Positions 5,704-28,845 of a DNA stretch of 64,000 nucleotides are shown in pieces. A model generated the notes under the pieces. It did no database searches and was not told the DNA's origin. It worked only from the letters and a program-made list of their open reading frames with translations. Made by a program: the position numbers and the translations under genes. This DNA is from Rhodanobacteraceae bacterium (GTDB lineage Bacteria; Pseudomonadota; Gammaproteobacteria; Xanthomonadales; Rhodanobacteraceae), in the NCBI GenBank assembly GCA_004299555.1, contig SCQU01000001.1, positions 1 to 64,000 of the forward strand. Reading direction: 5' to 3'. Numbering within the stretch: the first letter of the stretch is position 1; every line of letters starts with the position of its first letter.

Positions 5704-6620
5704 CGCCGACCCTCGCGCAACTGCAAGCATTGCACGCACAAGCCGGCGCGCGACCGCGCGCCCTGCCCGTCCCGCCCCTTGATGCGATGGGCCGTTCACC
5801 CCGGCAGCCTGACGTCCACACGCTGCGGCAGTGGTTGCGCCTGCGCGATCCCGCCCCCGCAACGCCCGCCTCCGGCGCCGTGGACCGCAGCTTGCCAGGC
5901 ACGGAAATTGCGCCCGGATTGCGCCTGATCGAAGCGCGGCTGCCGTCACCCGCCCCGTCACGCATCGCGGGTGCGTTCGACCGCAGGGACGCCATCGACA
6001 CCCATCGCGTATTGTTTTTCGACACCGAAACCACCGGGCTTGCCGGCGGTACGGGCACCCGCGCGTTCCTGGTCGCCGCCTCGGCGTGGAACCAACAAGG
6101 CCTCCACATCCGCCAATTGCTGATGACCACCCTCGCCGCCGAGTCCGCGCTGCTCGGCGAGTTCGCACGCTGGCTGGCACCGGACACGATCCTCGTCAGT
6201 TACAACGGCAAGTCCTACGATGCGCCGCTGCTGCGCACCCGCTACCGGCTTGCGCGGCGCGCGGATCCGCTCGCGGGCCTTGCCCACGTGGACCTGCTGT
6301 ACCCCACGCGGCGCCAATACCGCGGTGCGTTCGCAAACTGCCGCCTCGCCACCATCGAACGCGAGGTACTGAACATCGTCCGCGCCGACGACCTGCCCGG
6401 GAGCGCGGCGCCCGCGGCGTGGAAGACCTACCTGCACGGCCGCGCGTCCACCAGCCTCAAGCGCGTCCTCGCGCACAACCAGCAGGATGTCGCGACGCTG
6501 GCGCAACTCTTGCCGCACCTGTCCACCCACGCGGCAACGCAGGCCACCCGCAAAGGCAAGGTTGGCACGCGGCTCGGTCCAGTGGCTGCCATCACCACCA
6601 GCGCTGAACGGCCAAGCTGA
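5700..6620 (+). CDS. mrfB: MrfB/YprB-like RNase H-fold 3'-5' exonuclease
   Basis: A 306-residue protein with a DEDD-type exonuclease core. Exo I is FFDTETTGLAGGTGT (D108, E110), Exo II is SYNGKSYDAPLLRTRY, and Exo III is HNQQDVATLAQLL (the H-x(4)-D form, so DEDDh-like). The first ~100 residues are proline/arginine rich and not conserved. Bacillus MrfB is a metal-dependent exonuclease recruited with MrfA to DNA damage. The four-base overlap with the helicase gene implies coupled translation and a joint role in lesion excision. Some YprB homologues carry a C-terminal TPR part; here the protein ends soon after Exo III, with a basic tail. Confidence 0.82.
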   Translation: MTPTLAQLQALHAQAGARPRALPVPPLDAMGRSPRQPDVHTLRQWLRLRDPAPATPASGAVDRSLPGTEIAPGLRLIEARLPSPAPSRIAGAFDRRDAIDTHRVLFFDTETTGLAGGTGTRAFLVAASAWNQQGLHIRQLLMTTLAAESALLGEFARWLAPDTILVSYNGKSYDAPLLRTRYRLARRADPLAGLAHVDLLYPTRRQYRGAFANCRLATIEREVLNIVRADDLPGSAAPAAWKTYLHGRASTSLKRVLAHNQQDVATLAQLLPHLSTHAATQATRKGKVGTRLGPVAAITTSAERPS

Positions 6621-6627
6621 CGCCAGC

Positions 6628-6650
6628 GGTCCGCCCGGCACCGCCGGACC
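6628..6650. terminator. Short hairpin between convergent genes
   Basis: GGTCCG and CGGACC pair across an 11-base GC-rich loop in the 81-base gap between the exonuclease gene and the convergent acetyltransferase gene. No T-tract is present, so termination at this site is only a possibility. Confidence 0.25.
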
Positions 6651-6701
6651 CGGACACGCGGCGCAACGGCGCATCCTTGGCGTAGCGGGCGCCGCGCGGG
6701 T

Positions 6702-7274
6702 TTACTTCAGCGTGAGGTTGTAGACCTCGACCGCCGGGTCCTGCAAATCCAGCTTGCGCTCGAAGCCAAGGCGTGCCGCAAGGTGGTGGCTGCCATCGGA
6801 GCTTGCCGGCGCGAACGCGCGCAACCTTCGGATGCCGCGTGCGCGCGCCGCCTGGATCAAGAGCCGCATCAACGCCGACCCGACGCCGCGCTTTTGCCAC
6901 TCGTCGCTCACCGTCACCGAGCAATCACAACCATCACCCTTGGCGTTGGCGTGAAAGTGCGCCGCGCCGATCTGCCGATCGCGCCCGGCGTCTGACACCA
7001 GTGCGATGAAACCGGCCGCGTTGGCGGGGTCGAGGTGGGTCAACCGACGGGCCACGTCGGGGCATGGCTCCTGGATCAGGCCGAGAAACCGCAGGCTGCG
7101 CATTTCCGGCGACAGGCGGTTCAGAAAGTCCAGTTCCAGTTCCGCGTCTTGCGCGCCGATCGGCCGGATGCGAACGACCGTGCCGTCATCCAGACGCTTG
7201 CTCCAGCCGATATCCGGCGGCAGGTGGGGTCTGGGCGTCCAGCCGGTGCCTTGGAGCGTACCGAGTTGAGACAT
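6702..7274 (-). CDS. GNAT family N-acetyltransferase
   Basis: A 190-residue protein with one GNAT fold. The N-terminal half has DGTVVRIRPIGAQDAELELDF, typical of the RimI-like domain found alone or in acyl-CoA synthetase (Pat) fusions. The acetyl-CoA loop is seen as SVTVSDEWQKRGVGSALMRL (R/Q-x2-G-x-G). The C-terminal half ends in LAARLGFERKL, the usual beta6-alpha4 region. The substrate (protein lysine, amine or other) cannot be told. A GAGG about 12 bases before the chosen ATG and a further ATG four codons upstream make the exact start uncertain. Confidence 0.75.
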   Translation of the reverse strand: MSQLGTLQGTGWTPRPHLPPDIGWSKRLDDGTVVRIRPIGAQDAELELDFLNRLSPEMRSLRFLGLIQEPCPDVARRLTHLDPANAAGFIALVSDAGRDRQIGAAHFHANAKGDGCDCSVTVSDEWQKRGVGSALMRLLIQAARARGIRRLRAFAPASSDGSHHLAARLGFERKLDLQDPAVEVYNLTLK

Positions 7275-22619: not shown

Positions 22620-23174
22620 TCAGCGAGCAATCGTGTTGGTGCGGCGAATTTTCTTCAGCAGTTGCAGAATCCCGTACACCAGCGCCTCGGCCGTCGGCGG
22701 GCAGCCGGGCACATAGATGTCGACCGGCACGATGCGGTCGCAGCCGCGCACCACCGAATATGAATAGTGGTAGTAGCCGCCGCCATTGGCACAGCTGCCC
22801 ATCGAAATCACCCACTTGGGCTCGGGCATCTGGTCGTACACCTTGCGCAGCGCCGGTGCCATCTTGTTGACCAGCGTGCCGGCCACGATCATCACGTCCG
22901 ATTGGCGCGGCGAGGGGCGGAAGATCACGCCGTAACGGTCAAGATCCAGGCGCGACGCGCCGGCGTGCATCATTTCCACCGCACAACAGGCCAGGCCAAA
23001 GGTCATCGGCCACATGGAACCCGTGCGCGCCCAATTGAACAGCGCGTCGATCGTGGTGACGCCGAAGCCTTCCCGCATGACCGGGTTGTCGGCCTCGGGG
23101 CGCAGGATGTCATCCACCTTCCCGATCGGAACCGGGTTGTGCATGGACTTGTCAATGGCAGACATCAATCCCAT
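22620..23174 (-). CDS. nuoB: NADH-quinone oxidoreductase subunit B (PSST homologue)
   Basis: A 184-residue subunit carrying the terminal cluster N2, which donates electrons to quinone. Ligand motifs are intact: [10 protein letters not shown] (about residue 61), [21 protein letters not shown], and [11 protein letters not shown]. The start at [10 protein letters not shown] is preferred because AGGGG lies seven bases before it; it overlaps the end of nuoA by ten bases. A later ATG three codons on is possible. Confidence 0.96.
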
Positions 23175-23521
23175 TCGAGCGCCCCTTTCTTCCACACGTA
23201 GATGTAGCCCACGACCAAGAGCAGCAGGAAGGTGAACATTTCCACCAGCGCGATGATGCCGATCCTGGTGAACACCGTCGCCCACGGAAACAGGAAGGCG
23301 ATTTCCAGATCGAACAGGATGAACAGGATCGCGATGAGGTAGTAGCGCACATCAAACTTCATGCGCGCGCCCTCGAAGGGCTCGAAGCCGCACTCGTAGG
23401 GCGAGTACTTTTCGGCATCGGGGCGGCGCGGCCCGGCCAGCCAGCCAATCACGATCAGCGCAACGCCGATGGCGCCGGCGACGATGAGGAACAAAAGAAT
23501 GGGCCAGTATCCAGTCAGCAT
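23165..23521 (-). CDS. nuoA: NADH-quinone oxidoreductase subunit A
   Basis: A 118-residue three-helix membrane subunit (ND3 homologue), first gene of the operon. Diagnostic stretches are [20 protein letters not shown], whose Cys loop moves during complex I turnover, and [16 protein letters not shown] candidate sigma-70 promoter lies about 27 bases upstream, in the short gap to a restriction-modification gene that reads in the same direction. Confidence 0.97.
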
Positions 23522-23547
23522 GCCGTTCGATCCACGTTATCCGCTCA

Positions 23548-23576
23548 ATTTTCGCACGCACCGGCAGATGTCGCAA
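23548..23576 (-). promoter_or_regulatory. Candidate sigma-70 promoter of the nuo operon
   Basis: Read leftward, a -35 box TTGCGA is followed after 17 bases by GAAAAT with an upstream TG (extended -10). Transcription would begin about 20 bases before the nuoA ATG. It fits between the restriction-modification gene stop and nuoA, so nuo expression need not depend on that gene. Confidence 0.45.
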
Positions 23577-23594
23577 TCCAAATCCGCCTGTTGC

Positions 23595-26500
23595 TCACGC
23601 CAGCGGCCAGCCACCTGCGGCTTCGATGGCGGCATCAATGCCGGCTTGGAGCACCAGTGTACGCGCCAACGCGGCGGTGATGTTCTGGTAGTGGCTCAGG
23701 TCATCGTAGGACAGCGTCCGGCCCTTGCGATCCTTCAGCCACTTTTCGGCCACCCGATAACCGCCGATGTGCATGTCCCACACGGCTTGCGGCACGCCCT
23801 CGAAGTATTGCCGGGCGTTGATCCACACGCGGCCGGCGTCGACTTCCCCCTTCGGCACGAAGGGGGATTGAAGGAGATGGCTTTTCAGATCGCTCGTCAG
23901 CATCCCCCCGCCGCGTTGCGGCGACCCCCTTCCAATGGAAGGGGGTGCGGATGCCGCGTAACGAACCTTCACCACCTCGTTGCTGCCGGCGACCGGAAAC
24001 CCGGTTACGCGCGGCAGCCTGGTTTGCATGGTGTGCAGCGCAATCAGCTCGCGGCCGGCCGCCACCAGCGCGGCGAACAGCTTGCGCTCGGTGGTCAGCG
24101 GTACGCGCGGGAAATCACGCTTCAGGAAATCCGCGTAGCGCGTGCGATAGGACGGCGCGTACAGGACGGCGTAGATATACGCCAGCGTGTCTTCGGGGCT
24201 GGACGCGGCGCCGGTGGCCTGCGTCAGCGCGGCAACGAATGCCGGCGCGAGGTTGGCGACTCTCCGCGTTGGACCGTTATCGCCGTGTCGTTTGACCTCG
24301 TGCGGATAGAGCCAAAGCGGACTCACCGCCATGATCCCACGGTTGCTGTACATCGCTCTGTTATCAGCCACGTTCCCAACAGCCAAGATATGCGAGTAGC
24401 CACGGTCTATTGATGCCTGCCGCATCATTGCGAGGCCAACATTCGCGAGTCCGACAAAGTTGTCGAACGCCCGCGTACGCCGGTGAACCGCCACGTTTGA
24501 ATCCCACACCGTCCAGCGCACATCGAACGGCCGATACAAGATCGGCACAACTTTCTCACGCCACTTCCCATCCGCCAGTTCCCGCTTGGCACGGGCATAG
24601 CGCCACTGATCCTGTGAGCACAACTTGAACAGGCCACGGGCTTCGGATTCGGTCGTGGTCGCCAGCAGGCGCTCGACCTTGCGCGCGGCCTCTTCCGGCG
24701 TCCAAGAAATTGCAAACTCGTCGTGCGTGGTGACGATGCCAGGCGCGGGATCGCCATTGGGCGCGAACACATCACGCAACGACCAGCCGTGCTCGTATTC
24801 AGCCAACCGATCCGCGTCTTGCTGCACAAACAGGAAGCTGGGCGACGCCGGCGTCAGTTCCGTCCATTGCGTCACCGCCACCGACTGCGCATCGAGCGCG
24901 GCGTACTTCACCGCGCGGGTGCCGTAAAGGTCGGCGTGGAAGACGCGCGCCAGCCTTTTCCCCTCTCCCGCCGGGAGAGGGTGCCCCGAAGGGGCGGGTG
25001 AGGGTTCGGCCTGGCCCAGGGATGATGCAGTGCGCGTATTCGTACCCTCACCCCTGCCCCTCTCCCGGCGGGAGAGGGGTTCAATCTTGGCCGGCGCCAC
25101 GCGCCGCGAACGCGGTTCAACGGCGGCGGCGCCTTGTTCCGCTCGCCCTTGGACAGGCTCAGGACGAACCGGGTCTTGCACATGCCTGACGAAAATCCCG
25201 ATCGCCACGCCCTGCTGGATGTCGAACACGTTTTCATCCTTGCCGCCATCGGGCGCGTGCTCCTTCTTCTTGCTGTTGCCGTGCAGGTCACAAACGTAAA
25301 TCTCGTCGAAACTGCGCATCAGGCTGAAGCGCATGTCCATGAACGTCGGGTTGTCGAGGTAGCCGTGGTTGGTGACAAAAGCCAGGATGCCATAGCCGGT
25401 CTGCTCGATCCGCCACTGCGCGAAGCGGATGAACTTCACGTAGTCATCGGACAGCCATTTCGCCTGCGCCGGTTTCTGCAATTCCGCGCTTTGCTTGTAT
25501 TCGCCCATCAGGTCTTCGATCCACTCGCCCTTGTTGGACGAATGCCCCGAGTACGGCGGATTGCCCAGCACCACCATCACCGGCACGTCGCGCTTGATGC
25601 GCGAGGCGGCCTGCGATTCATCGGCCAGCCATTGGCTGAACAGCGGCAAGCCGGTTTTCTCGTGGGCCTCTTCCAGCGAATTGGTCAGGAATACGCCGAG
25701 CCGCTCGTCGCTGGAAAAATCATAGCCGCTGCGTTCGAGCTCCAGCCCCAGCTTCATGTGCGCGACCGCGTACGGCGCCATCAGCAGCTCGAAACCGAAC
25801 AGGCGCGGCAGCAGGTGCTCGGCAACGTAACCCGGCCACGCGCCGGCATTGCCTTCGAAGCGTTCGCGGATTTTCTGGATGACCGCGTACAGGAACGTAC
25901 CGGTACCGGTCGCGGGATCGAGGATCTGCACCCGGTGCGTCCACGCCTCGACCTCGGTGATCTGGGTCGACGACTTGCGCTTGCCGTGGGTGGTGTCGTG
26001 CTTCAGTGATTTCCAGCGCACCTTGCCGGCGTGGGCCAGGCCTTCCTTCAGGCCGAACTCGCGCTGCAGCAACGCATCCACGCTGCGCACGATGTAGCCC
26101 ACCACCGGCTCGGGCGTGTAATACACGCCGCGTGCCTCGCGCATCTTCGGATCGTAGGCCGCAAGGAAAGTCTCATAAAAATGCACCACCGGGTCTTCGC
26201 GGCGGGTGCGGTGCCCGAAATCCGCGAGGATGGCCGCCATGTCCGCGCGCGCCAGCAGCTCGGCCAGCTGATCCACCGCCCAACTGACACGCGGATCGAG
26301 GTCGGGCCCGGCAATGGAGTGAAACAGCTTGCGCAGGAACGGGTTGGTTTTCGGCAGCTGCGCGGCGGCGCTCTGGCGCGTGAATCCCGCGGACGGCGCA
26401 TTGCAGCGCGCGGCGAACAAACCGTAGCACAGCGTCTGCGCGTACATGTCGGCAAACTGTTTGACGCTCAGTGACTTGATCAACACCTTGCGAAAGGCTT

Positions 26501-27083
26501 CGAACTGCGCATGCAGCTCGCCGCGGTCGCCTTCGGTGCTGAAGCTGTTTTCGATCAGTCCGCGGATCAGCTGCGCCAGTCTGGCCATCCGCGTCGCCAG
26601 ATCATGCGGCGTGGATTTCAGCGGCAGGTCGGCGGCGAGAAATTGCGTCAGCAGCTGGGCCACCTCCGACGCAGCGCTTTCGTTCCAGCGGATGCGGCCG
26701 TTGCCGCCGGGCCGCGGCAGGCTGGCAGTGAGACGCAATTCGCCATCGAGGTACCAGCGGAACTCGAGGTAATCGGTCAGTACCAGGTTGCCGAGCGATC
26801 CCCGATAGCGCAGCAATTGTTCGCTGCGTTCGACCTTGGCCAAACCAATACCGACGTCCTTGGCTTCGATGTAACCCAACGGCACGGTGCCGCGCACGAT
26901 GATGAAGTCGGGCGCGCCGCAGTCGATCTGGCGCGGCTCGTTGACCGCCGTGACGCCGGCGCCCGCCAGCGCCTCGATCAGCGTCTTGCACGCGGGCCGG
27001 TAGGTGTGTTCGGTGGCATTGCCCGCGCGGTACGCCTGCTCGACCGCGGCAAGATAGGCTTTCAGCGCGGCGTCTGGCGGCAT
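23595..27083 (-). CDS. Single-chain restriction-modification enzyme (N6-adenine methylase, type ISP/IIG-like) with in-frame repeats
   Basis: A 1,162-residue protein. The N-terminus has a PD-(D/E)xK-like nuclease site: PDF at 58-60 and EAK at 73-75. The methylase core has motif I DPATGTGTF (about 388) and motif IV GNPPYSG (about 503). The C-terminal half resembles the type ISP specificity region (YFEGVPQAVWDMHIGGYRVA). No helicase motifs are seen, so it is closer to stand-alone IIG/IIL-type enzymes. Two segments (about residues 638-709 and 1047-1080) are translated palindromic repeats, yet the frame is intact. Start: GGGAA about eight bases before ATG. It lies between tRNA-Leu and nuoA, with stretches of lower GC than its neighbours, suggesting acquisition. 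Confidence 0.8.
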   Translation of the reverse strand: MPPDAALKAYLAAVEQAYRAGNATEHTYRPACKTLIEALAGAGVTAVNEPRQIDCGAPDFIIVRGTVPLGYIEAKDVGIGLAKVERSEQLLRYRGSLGNLVLTDYLEFRWYLDGELRLTASLPRPGGNGRIRWNESAASEVAQLLTQFLAADLPLKSTPHDLATRMARLAQLIRGLIENSFSTEGDRGELHAQFEAFRKVLIKSLSVKQFADMYAQTLCYGLFAARCNAPSAGFTRQSAAAQLPKTNPFLRKLFHSIAGPDLDPRVSWAVDQLAELLARADMAAILADFGHRTRREDPVVHFYETFLAAYDPKMREARGVYYTPEPVVGYIVRSVDALLQREFGLKEGLAHAGKVRWKSLKHDTTHGKRKSSTQITEVEAWTHRVQILDPATGTGTFLYAVIQKIRERFEGNAGAWPGYVAEHLLPRLFGFELLMAPYAVAHMKLGLELERSGYDFSSDERLGVFLTNSLEEAHEKTGLPLFSQWLADESQAASRIKRDVPVMVVLGNPPYSGHSSNKGEWIEDLMGEYKQSAELQKPAQAKWLSDDYVKFIRFAQWRIEQTGYGILAFVTNHGYLDNPTFMDMRFSLMRSFDEIYVCDLHGNSKKKEHAPDGGKDENVFDIQQGVAIGIFVRHVQDPVRPEPVQGRAEQGAAAVEPRSRRVAPAKIEPLSRRERGRGEGTNTRTASSLGQAEPSPAPSGHPLPAGEGKRLARVFHADLYGTRAVKYAALDAQSVAVTQWTELTPASPSFLFVQQDADRLAEYEHGWSLRDVFAPNGDPAPGIVTTHDEFAISWTPEEAARKVERLLATTTESEARGLFKLCSQDQWRYARAKRELADGKWREKVVPILYRPFDVRWTVWDSNVAVHRRTRAFDNFVGLANVGLAMMRQASIDRGYSHILAVGNVADNRAMYSNRGIMAVSPLWLYPHEVKRHGDNGPTRRVANLAPAFVAALTQATGAASSPEDTLAYIYAVLYAPSYRTRYADFLKRDFPRVPLTTERKLFAALVAAGRELIALHTMQTRLPRVTGFPVAGSNEVVKVRYAASAPPSIGRGSPQRGGGMLTSDLKSHLLQSPFVPKGEVDAGRVWINARQYFEGVPQAVWDMHIGGYRVAEKWLKDRKGRTLSYDDLSHYQNITAALARTLVLQAGIDAAIEAAGGWPLA
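23843..23946. repeat. Palindromic repeat cluster B inside the restriction-modification gene
   Basis: Three hairpins lie in about 100 bases: CCCCCTTCG/CGAAGGGGG (23846-23866), GCCGC/GCGGC (23910-23922) and CCCCCTTCCA/TGGAAGGGGG (23925-23945). Elements of this appearance are usually intergenic in xanthomonads and related bacteria. Here it is read as about 34 residues near the C-terminus of the enzyme, between KVRYA and VDAGRVWIN, without a stop or frameshift. Confidence 0.7.
24958..25172. repeat. Palindromic repeat cluster A inside the restriction-modification gene
   Basis: It contains CCCTCTCCCG/CGGGAGAGGG (24961-24981), GCCCC/GGGGC (24983-24995) and CCCCTCTCCC/GGGAGAGGGG (25057-25079). About 70 bases further is a GGACAGGCTCAGGACGAAC element (25151-25169). 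Both types are common dispersed intergenic repeats in GC-rich proteobacteria. Translated, they give phrases such as LSRRERGRGEG and HPLPAGEG, well known from over-called proteins. Here they add roughly 70 residues between the methylase core and ARVFHADLYG. Confidence 0.75.
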
Positions 27084-27121
27084 CGTGGGGTTCCCGGGTT
27101 GCGAAGGCCGGCGCAACGCAA

Positions 27122-27143
27122 CAAAAACCCCGCCGGAGCGGGG
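27122..27143 (-). terminator. Rho-independent terminator after tRNA-Leu
   Basis: Read leftward, CCCCGC-TCCG-GCGGGG is followed directly by TTTTTGT. It lies 22 bases past the tRNA 3' end and 38 bases before the restriction-modification start codon. It should separate the secG-tRNA transcript from that gene. Confidence 0.85.
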
Positions 27144-27165
27144 TCAATGTACAGCATCGAAAAGC

Positions 27166-27250
27166 TGGTGCCCAAGAGGGGACTCGAACCCCTACGGATC
27201 TCTCCGCTACCACCTCAAGGTAGTGCGTCTACCAATTCCGCCACCTGGGC
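27166..27250 (-). tRNA. tRNA-Leu, anticodon GAG
   Basis: 85 nt including an encoded CCA. The acceptor arm is GCCCAGG/CTTGGGC and the D-arm contains GGCGGAATTGGTAGACGC. The anticodon stem CTACC/GGTAG encloses loop TTGAGGT (anticodon GAG). A long class II variable arm follows, then the T-arm AGGGG-TTCGAGT-CCCCT. It reads CUC/CUU codons. It sits downstream of secG on the same strand, as in related genomes, and is followed by a strong terminator. Confidence 0.97.
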
Positions 27251-27426
27251 ATGCAAACCCATTCCTGGGAAACCCCCGGCACATCCCTGTACCGGGCTAT
27301 TTACAAACGTAAAAAGCCCCCGGGAAACTCCGCGCACATCCCAGTGCGCAATGGTCCACGAAAAGCAAAACCATTCCCGGGAAACATCCGGCGCATGGCC
27401 GTGCCAGAGTACTCACAAAACCAAGC
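27251..27426 (-). repeat. Three tandem ~56-bp hairpin repeats between secG and tRNA-Leu
   Basis: On the strand of transcription, three imperfect units each have a GC hairpin with a GGGAT- or GGCCAT-type loop, then GTTTCCC(G/A)GG and often AATGG-TTTG. The shared GGGAAAC (plus strand) occurs at 27267, 27322 and 27379, giving 55- and 57-base spacing. The clearest hairpins are GCGCAC/GTGCGC and CCCGGTAC/GTGCCGGG. TTCCCGGGAA is itself a palindrome. No function is known to me; processing or termination around the tRNA is possible. Confidence 0.7.
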
Positions 27427-27894
27427 TCAGTGCGATGCCGCAGGCACCGGGGCCGAGGCTGCCGGGGCGGCTGCCTTTGCCGGCACCGCCGGATGGGTCA
27501 CCGGGGCCGACGTTGGCGCGGCTGGAACTTCCGCCTGCCGGGCGGGTGCCGACGCGGCCGGCGCGCCAGCCGCGGGCGCGCTCGCGACGGGTGCGGATGC
27601 CGCCGGCGTCGCGGCGCCGGCCATGACACCAAGCGTCTGTTTGGCCGTCGGCGCCACGCCGTGGTGGCTCAGGTACATGCCCATGCCAAGGGTAAGCAAA
27701 AAAAAGACCCCGGCCAGGACCGCGGTGGTACGCGTCAGGAAGCTGGCGGCGCCGCGCGCACCGAACACGGTGCCCGACGAGCCGCCGCCGAAACTGGCGC
27801 CCGCATTGGCGCCATCGCCGCGCTGCATCAGGATCAGCACGATCATCGCAGCCGCGATGAGCACATAGAACACGCTGAAAATCGTGAATATCAT
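27427..27894 (-). CDS. secG: Preprotein translocase subunit SecG with long Ala/Pro tail
   Basis: A 155-residue inner-membrane protein that assists SecYE. The family core is residues 1-80: a first helix, LILMQRGDGANAGASFGGG in the cytosolic loop, GTVFGARGAASFLTRTTA, and a second helix. The remaining ~70 residues are Ala/Pro/Ser-rich low complexity (for example ASAPAAGAPAASAPA), much longer than in E. coli (110 residues in total). Order tpiA-secG-tRNA-Leu matches relatives; the gap to tpiA is 24 bases. Confidence 0.93.
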   Translation of the reverse strand: MIFTIFSVFYVLIAAAMIVLILMQRGDGANAGASFGGGSSGTVFGARGAASFLTRTTAVLAGVFFLLTLGMGMYLSHHGVAPTAKQTLGVMAGAATPAASAPVASAPAAGAPAASAPARQAEVPAAPTSAPVTHPAVPAKAAAPAASAPVPAASH

Positions 27895-27918
27895 GGACGG
27901 TTCCTGTACGCGCGGGCG

Positions 27919-28668
27919 TCAGCCCGCAGCCGCACATATAGAGACAAAATCGGTAGCCTGCAACGCCGCGCCGCCGATCAGGCCGCCATCGATGTCGGCC
28001 TCGGCAAACAACTCGGCCGCGTTGCCGGGTTTGACGCTGCCGCCATAAACGATACGGGTTGAACCGGCGATTGTAGCATCGTCCCGCGCGAGCTGGCTAC
28101 GCAGCAGTGCGTGGACGTCCTGCGCCTGCTGCGGGGTCGCACAACGCCCCGTACCGATGGCCCATACCGGTTCGTAGGCGATGACAATGTGGCCAAAAGC
28201 CGCTATGCCGCAACGCTCCATCACGGCAGCCAGCTGGTTGCCCACTACCGCAGCCGTCGCACCGGCTTCGTGCTGCTCCAGCGTTTCACCCACGCACAGC
28301 ACCGGCGTCAGGCCGTGCGCCAGCGCCTGCGCCACCTTGGCCGCGACCAGTTCATTGGACTCTTGGTGGAACTGCCGGCGCTCGGAGTGGCCGGCCAACA
28401 CCGTTGCACAGCCGACGTCACGCAGCATCGCGGCCGAAACCTCGCCCGTGAAGGCACCCGCTTCGTGCTGGCTCGAGTCCTGCCCGCCCACCACGATGCG
28501 CGAACCGGCACAGGCCGCGCATACTTCGCGCAGGTAGGGGAACGGCGGGAACAAGGCAACGTCGACCGTGCTGCCGATATCGGCATCCACGATCGCGCCG
28601 GCCAGCGCCGATGCCATCGCGCGCGAGCCGTTCAGCTTCCAGTTTCCGCCCACCCACTTGCGGCGCAT
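27919..28668 (-). CDS. tpiA: Triosephosphate isomerase
   Basis: A 249-residue TIM-barrel enzyme interconverting dihydroxyacetone phosphate and glyceraldehyde 3-phosphate in glycolysis. Catalytic elements are visible: GGNWKLNG (substrate Lys near residue 10), VLAGHSERR (catalytic His), AYEPVWAIGTG (catalytic Glu and loop 6), and the phosphate site IVYGGSVKPGNAAEL. The start at MRRKWVGGNWK fits the family; an in-frame ATG 13 codons upstream gives an unrelated leader. It is first in the tpiA-secG-tRNA block. Confidence 0.97.
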   Translation of the reverse strand: MRRKWVGGNWKLNGSRAMASALAGAIVDADIGSTVDVALFPPFPYLREVCAACAGSRIVVGGQDSSQHEAGAFTGEVSAAMLRDVGCATVLAGHSERRQFHQESNELVAAKVAQALAHGLTPVLCVGETLEQHEAGATAAVVGNQLAAVMERCGIAAFGHIVIAYEPVWAIGTGRCATPQQAQDVHALLRSQLARDDATIAGSTRIVYGGSVKPGNAAELFAEADIDGGLIGGAALQATDFVSICAAAG

Positions 28669-28845
28669 GGCCCGGCTCCGTTGACTTGGGCCCGCGAGGA
28701 TAGCCAACCACGCGGCACCCGCGCAAACTTCGCCGTGCGATCATCCAGGCCCGTGGCGCCCGCGCGCGCTCAACCCATGGCTGGTGCTGTCAGTATTCAA
28801 CACGCACGGCCCCCGCAGCCTTACCTCCACCACAACCACTTGAAC

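Follow-up and report, generated by a model that had tools for sequence, protein, structure and literature searches.

The restriction-modification (R-M) gene in the window, i.e., the 64,000-nt stretch of Rhodanobacteraceae DNA that was analyzed, very probably contains members of two unrelated families of dispersed palindromes, designated A (a CCCTCTCCC pair) and B (a CCCCCTTC pair), which would occupy, as insertions, two loops on the surface of an enzyme that is otherwise intact and be translated there as disordered linker peptide. The protein is presumably made and active. An insertion tolerated by the protein and comparable to the palindromic elements of Rickettsia had been put forward in the initial annotation, and this reading is favored because the insert is absent from homologues, consists of dispersed DNA, is predicted to be disordered, and belongs to a family found in frame in ten other genes. 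The palindromes most likely arrived by random insertion through a mobilizer (or by copying through recombination), and their insertion would be tolerated because most frames of these GC-rich palindromes lack stop codons and the tip of the hairpin concerned, between the methyltransferase and the specificity domain, points into the solvent. Selection would do little beyond removing insertions that are out of frame, bear stop codons or disrupt the core. The coordinates of all features are listed in Table 1.

Table 1. Features in and next to the R-M gene (positions in the window).
Feature	Position	Strand	Remarks
DrdV/type ISP-like R-M gene	23595..27083	-	1,162 aa; nuclease, N6-adenine methyltransferase and specificity domain
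Insert B, residues 1046-1080	23844..23948	-	Pair of CCCCCTTC..GAAGGGGG palindromes, second dispersed family; in frame; pLDDT <50
Insert A, residues 637-708	24960..25175	-	pLDDT <50; between strands 626-633 and 713-718
Family A, inverted pair of CCCTCTCCC palindromes	24958..25083	-	REP-like, BIME/REPIN-like; in frame
Added sequence between CCCTCTCCC pair and GGACAGGCTCAGGACGAAC motif	25084..25150	-	Assigned to no repeat
GGACAGGCTCAGGACGAAC motif	25151..25169	+	Minus-strand reading VRPEPVQ; single copy in genome
tRNA-Leu(gag)	27166..27250	-	Directly upstream of R-M gene

The R-M gene and its two inserts

The ORF reading of the window gives 1,162 open codons and a stop for the R-M gene, and the ORF list contains a further upstream start at 27116. 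A Pfam scan of the protein matched a type ISP specificity domain in addition to an N6 methyltransferase, and it yielded neither a helicase family nor a nuclease match. In an alignment of 30 sequences that includes the window protein, P58 D59, E73 and K75 in the N-terminal part, which we take to be the nuclease motif, and NPPY, presumably the methyltransferase motif, are invariant. The best solved match is DrdV (PDB 7lo5), both by sequence (7.7e-38) and by the fold of the predicted model (3.2e-43), at ~20% identity. The window protein resembles DrdV in combining nuclease, N6 methyltransferase and specificity parts in a single chain without a helicase, where the nuclease part is assigned by the invariant residues. 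The next-closest solved structures, those of the type ISP enzymes LlaBIII and LlaGI (4xqk, 5ffj), have the methyltransferase and the type ISP specificity domain in common with it, but type ISP enzymes include an SF2 helicase in their single chain, whereas the window protein gave no helicase match and is also shorter than these two (1,162 vs. 1,578 aa). Thus, judging from the domains, the closest structures and the invariant residues, the enzyme looks intact, and it may well be active.

The gene is flanked by what we take to be a NuoA-like gene on one side and, beyond the tRNA, SecG-like and triosephosphate-isomerase-like genes on the other (23165-28707). It was matched in only six of the 197 genomes of the bacterial family, including its own, which suggests that it was gained horizontally. 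Integration directed by the tRNA was considered as well, but there is no sign of it, as no sequence of ≥9 nt is shared by the tRNA-Leu region and the far side of the R-M gene. The same tRNA was the sole match in an Rfam scan, which found nothing above threshold at the palindromic elements.

Two in-frame hairpins in an intact frame had been described initially, and they are indeed present. The CCCTCTCCC hairpins of 22 nt each are contained in 24960-24981 and 25057-25079. Compared as direct copies, they share 95% identity, and when paired as arms, their complementarity is 100%. As RNA, the 126-nt pair has a folding energy of -90.5 kcal/mol vs. -58.1 ± 4.2 kcal/mol for 200 dinucleotide shuffles (z -7.7), none of which folded as well. 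Between the IFVR strand and the FHADLYG strand, the window protein counts 82 residues, as compared to 11-36 (median 12) in 75 homologues, in good agreement with the earlier estimate of about 70 added residues. The set of 75 homologues was compiled after dropping seven of the 80 from genome contigs (ORFs <960 aa: L051, L055, L057, L069, L079, L081, and L087), and the comparison further leaves out L011, L012, and L015-L019, which are fragments or duplicates. Insert A itself is absent from all 75, i.e., homologues with the same residues and no recognizable repeats, which the initial annotation had named as evidence against an insertion, were not encountered; two of them (L032 and L093) contain shorter peptides with the same repeat type.

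In its own genome, family A yielded at least 43 match rows when 40 of 114 candidates were scored, and many of these rows cover both halves of the pair; merged, they represent 32 places. The initial annotation had considered all palindromic elements in the insert as dispersed. This is correct for the CCCTCTCCC hairpins but not for the GGACAGGCTCAGGACGAAC motif, which occurs exactly once in the genome, with three more occurrences at three mismatches as compared to two for a reversed-pattern control, and which is therefore rejected as a dispersed element here. About 90 nt of insert A (25084-25175) are not repeat DNA of the genome in which they reside. Since the 16-nt core of GGACAGGCTCAGGACGAAC is also found inside an in-frame insert of the homologue L013, this upstream part of the insert could have been acquired in a different host. 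For family B, the repeat of insert B, at least 68 match rows were obtained with 40 of 67 candidates scored, representing 41 merged places.

An AlphaFold2 model of the R-M protein, built with 30 sequences, has a mean pLDDT of 77, and its two longest stretches with pLDDT <50 are inserts A and B. Insert A is thus predicted to be disordered and, because β-strands flank it on both sides, to be located at the tip of a β-hairpin.

The palindrome families in other genes of the genome

Family A was found in frame at 12 of its 32 places, as judged by coding score, Pfam or NCBIfam matches and reading. These places are distributed over 11 genes, i.e., the R-M gene and those for valyl-tRNA synthetase (ValRS), an Mpl-like Mur ligase, RibD, GcvP, a lipoyl-E3 protein, a Mo-oxidoreductase, a MeaB-mutase fusion, a glycosyltransferase, the HrpB helicase and a membrane protein, which contains two. 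A further copy in the linker of PDH E2 was seen in one search only and is outside this count. Of the 41 family B places, 3 are in frame, and these belong to two genes, the R-M gene and the gene for the dTDP-4-dehydrorhamnose reductase RmlD (L102:6510-7895, minus strand). In the latter, two tandem copies are in frame at residues 38-136, immediately behind the nucleotide-binding start; a third, tandem-repeat piece is found near the end. RmlD scores 302.8 bits against a cut-off of 224. Thus, the initial characterization of such elements as normally intergenic fits family B better than family A. The lower in-frame share of family B is not due to stop codons, since its copies have on average 4.6 of six frames open (16 copies) vs. 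3.3 for family A (19 copies); none of these copies has zero open frames.

These counts are based on automated scoring, in which two of the 43 family A rows and six of the 68 family B rows were dropped as short opposite-strand matches, combined with a domain scan of 41 spanning ORFs of ≥200 aa, which belong to 20 entries of family A and 35 of family B. Of these ORFs, 38 were scanned together and two (L114 and L106 10909-11568) separately, and one (L132) is a duplicate row that was scanned a single time. The automated score for family A was 9 of 32. One place, in the gene for an FAD monooxygenase (L123), was removed as a chance match that reads as native sequence, and four were added, i.e., those in RibD (L105) and the MeaB-mutase fusion (L119), automatically scored as "weak," and those in the glycosyltransferase (L104) and HrpB (L122), scored as "no"; domain matches and reading support all four. 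For family B, the score of 1 of 41 increased to 3 of 41 by adding two places in RmlD; seven of the 41 places are located near the end of a stretch and could be judged only partly. The counts exclude places that precede the first domain match and may lie ahead of the actual start codon, namely PilX (L102), L116, L120, and L124 for family A and L139, L142, L143, and L149 for family B.

Two other observations concern the arrangement of the repeats. In the glycosyltransferase gene (L104:2523-4115, minus strand), six tandem AEPLSPRG units immediately precede the family A palindrome, as if half of the repeat had been expanded. Furthermore, contig C28 (loci L101-L106, L132, L134, L135, L145, and L149) represents 8% of the genome, yet 13 of the 32 places of family A and 15 of the 41 of family B are located on it.

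The ValRS linker could be followed across the genus. ValRS was matched in 15 of the 16 genomes, the own genome included, and the linker that joins the catalytic domain to the anticodon-binding domain (approximately residues 668-723 of the L115 protein) was readable in 14 ORFs (L150-L177), again with the own one included. Motifs of the CCCTCTCC type are present in five of these 14 linkers. By reading, a related palindrome, CCTTCCCC..GGGGAAGG or CCCTCCCC..GGGGAGG, is found in five others, and neither type in the remaining four. The peptide frames of the repeats vary between the species, which suggests repeated turnover of the linker rather than a single ancient insertion. ValRS is an essential enzyme; therefore, its family A copies constitute strong indirect evidence that cells translate and tolerate such palindromic inserts.

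Repeats in the same loop of R-M homologues

The loop that accommodates insert A contains repeat-like sequence in seven of the 75 homologues, which, judging by the record titles, come from three phyla and mostly from metagenome bins. Counting both strands and the gene itself, the loop repeat gave 25 rows in the genome of a Gallionella (L023), ten in that of an acidobacterium (L031), including a further in-frame copy within this R-M gene, and three each in Thiobacillus denitrificans (L032) and in a member of the Anaerolineales (L042), two of the latter being weak. The loops of the two Chloroflexi (L029 and L061) and of a proteobacterial MAG (L093) were judged by their palindromes only. By reading, the loop repeats fall into about four sequence classes, i.e., the CCCTCTCC, ATTCCCGC, GTAGGGGC, and GGGCAAGATG types; those of L029 and L061 may stem from one event. 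L029 carries a second repeat near residue 1089, for which at least 91 rows were obtained in its genome with 40 of 264 candidates scored.

Hairpins are located in lineage-specific inserts in 12 of 76 proteins, that of the window included, and their density in such inserts (24 in 2,556 nt) is 31.6 times higher than in the core columns (72 in 242,418 nt). With the window protein excluded, 18 hairpins were found in 63 segments, vs. a mean of 0.54 and a maximum of 3 in 100 shuffles. Most of the insert hairpins (19 of 24) are located at window residue 664 or beyond, i.e., at or after the junction between the methyltransferase and specificity parts. Variability of a loop does not in itself entail palindromes, since ordinary length variation near residue 724 is accompanied by hairpin scores of ≤6 in every row listed. 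That R-M genes are a uniquely hairpin-rich class, or attract repeats, is not supported: their coding DNA contains 0.172 hairpins per kb vs. 0.125 in the flanking ORFs at 73 loci, a non-significant difference (1.38-fold, p 0.10) in a measure that is blunt because chance hairpins are counted as well.

In two cases, whole genes occupy the loop. In L079 (an actinomycetotal MAG; 5863-6079), the R-M gene is split at this position with a DUF2283 gene between the halves, and in L069 (a Chloroflexota MAG; 5774-6857), it is split by genes for a GIY-YIG nuclease, a DUF4258 protein and a DUF2283 protein. Both downstream halves have an ATG of their own, preceded by leaders that resemble each other. The GIY-YIG gene of L069 has copies of one 31-nt segment of the host gene on either side. 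Such splits look rare: a survey of 400 genomes of the phylum to which the genome of L029 (G201) belongs gave 45 genomes with matches, from which 30 loci were taken, and the loop was not split in any of the 20 readable ones. These 20 include L197, which is the L029 gene again, and the ten others include L183, whose match is interrupted by a stop. The same survey contained an R-M homologue with a long loop (L192).

Alternative explanations, known systems and implications

R-M genes are often phase-variable, and the palindromes could be imagined to form an off-switch, reversible or one-way, with recombination or slippage between the near-identical units disabling the enzyme. Mechanically, this is possible: the direct copies are 97 nt apart, which is not a multiple of three, and loss of one unit would lead to a stop at approximately codon 692, whilst inversion of the 76-nt interior would do so at approximately codon 681. 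However, such pairs are found genome-wide, and REP-like pairs are also present in ValRS, where switching would be lethal; a switch in the R-M gene is thus unsupported and quite unlikely. It is very unlikely, too, that the insertions are signs of a dead gene whose frame happens to be still open. Segments have been added at two sites of one gene, as decay would predict, but the long open frame is retained together with the conserved motifs, and the coding score is positive on both flanks of insert A as well as of insert B.

That the inserted peptide is useful, by altering DNA specificity, oligomerization or stability or by resisting phage-encoded inhibitors, would agree with the repeats at the same hairpin tip in several unrelated lineages and with the preponderance of insert hairpins at or after the methyltransferase/specificity junction discussed above. 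Yet the loop peptides vary widely among the lineages, that of the window protein is predicted to be disordered, and metabolic enzymes tolerate inserts likewise, which makes such a benefit highly improbable. Repeats can also confuse assembly, but since two separate repeat loci leave the frame open and similar in-frame repeats exist in independent genomes, an artefact is extremely unlikely. Translated insertions that are simply tolerated by the enzyme therefore remain the preferred explanation.

As for the nature of the elements, the window pair corresponds to REP elements in being a stem-loop in the range of 20-40 nt with many dispersed copies, and family A shares with them the frequent inverted pairs (BIME/REPIN). 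In RAYT-associated REPs, the same repeat flanks a Y1 transposase gene, an arrangement not seen among the listed matches of families A and B. The genome contains a single Y1 transposase-like gene (Y1_Tnp; C17:69967-70293). No family A match is present in its 3.3-kb locus (L125), and among the matches listed, none of either family lies within ~6 kb of the gene; the nearest listed family A match is at C17:63741, and none of family B is listed on C17. The Y1 gene itself is surrounded by another repeat, whose sequence is approximately AAAAAGGGGACGGAGG.AATTAA or the complement of this. According to an earlier study, REPs of the GTAG/CGTC super-families are likewise short palindromes, often in inverted pairs, and occur in frame in genes (PMC3733652). 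Their end tags, GTAG or CGTC, are both missing from 24958-25083 on either strand, the exact element boundaries being uncertain.

In-frame REPs outside Rickettsia have thus been described before in many genes, including those for tRNA synthetases and DNA repair; the recB gene of Xanthomonas carries one at approximately the same site in two species, and flexible linkers or loops have already been proposed as REP positions (PMC3733652). The words "restriction," "methylase," and "methyltransferase" are absent from the main text of that paper, whose gene table is in the supplement, and recurrence in one loop across phyla is absent from its passages on intragenic REPs. A review of small mobile repeats in frame describes Rickettsia palindromic elements (RPEs) that, like the inserts in the window, are open-frame repeats translated within protein genes, and reports that the gmk product containing an RPE is active with a changed substrate affinity (PMC2229807). 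As RPEs, of 105-146 bp, are described there as Rickettsia-specific (PMC2229807), they are set apart by description from the inserts in the window, whose host is not a Rickettsia. Insert A is nevertheless RPE-like in being a palindromic insert that is in frame, absent from homologues and, in the predicted model, located in a loop. A search by title or start of abstract, with most subscription journals outside its scope, retrieved no paper on the recurrence of coding palindromes at one R-M loop. As far as searched, this recurrence across three phyla and the turnover of the ValRS linker within one genus appear to be new.

Tentatively, the hairpin tip of the R-M enzyme might be regarded as a natural docking site used independently across phyla by about four classes of mobile palindromes and, in two lineages, by whole genes that split the enzyme into two polypeptides, each with a start codon of its own, and mobile palindromes as a standing source of linker peptides, as in ValRS, although this broader view is rather less likely to be right than wrong. 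In-frame mobile repeats amount to a natural insertion scan, as they reveal the sites at which nothing is lost when a protein is opened. Should the recurrence be confirmed, the hairpin between the methyltransferase and specificity parts would be a ready site for splitting or tagging DrdV-like enzymes. The ValRS series would record, at the level of a genus, the replacement of a linker in an essential enzyme by mobile DNA. It also carries a warning, as annotation and alignment methods may take such peptides for ordinary conserved protein.
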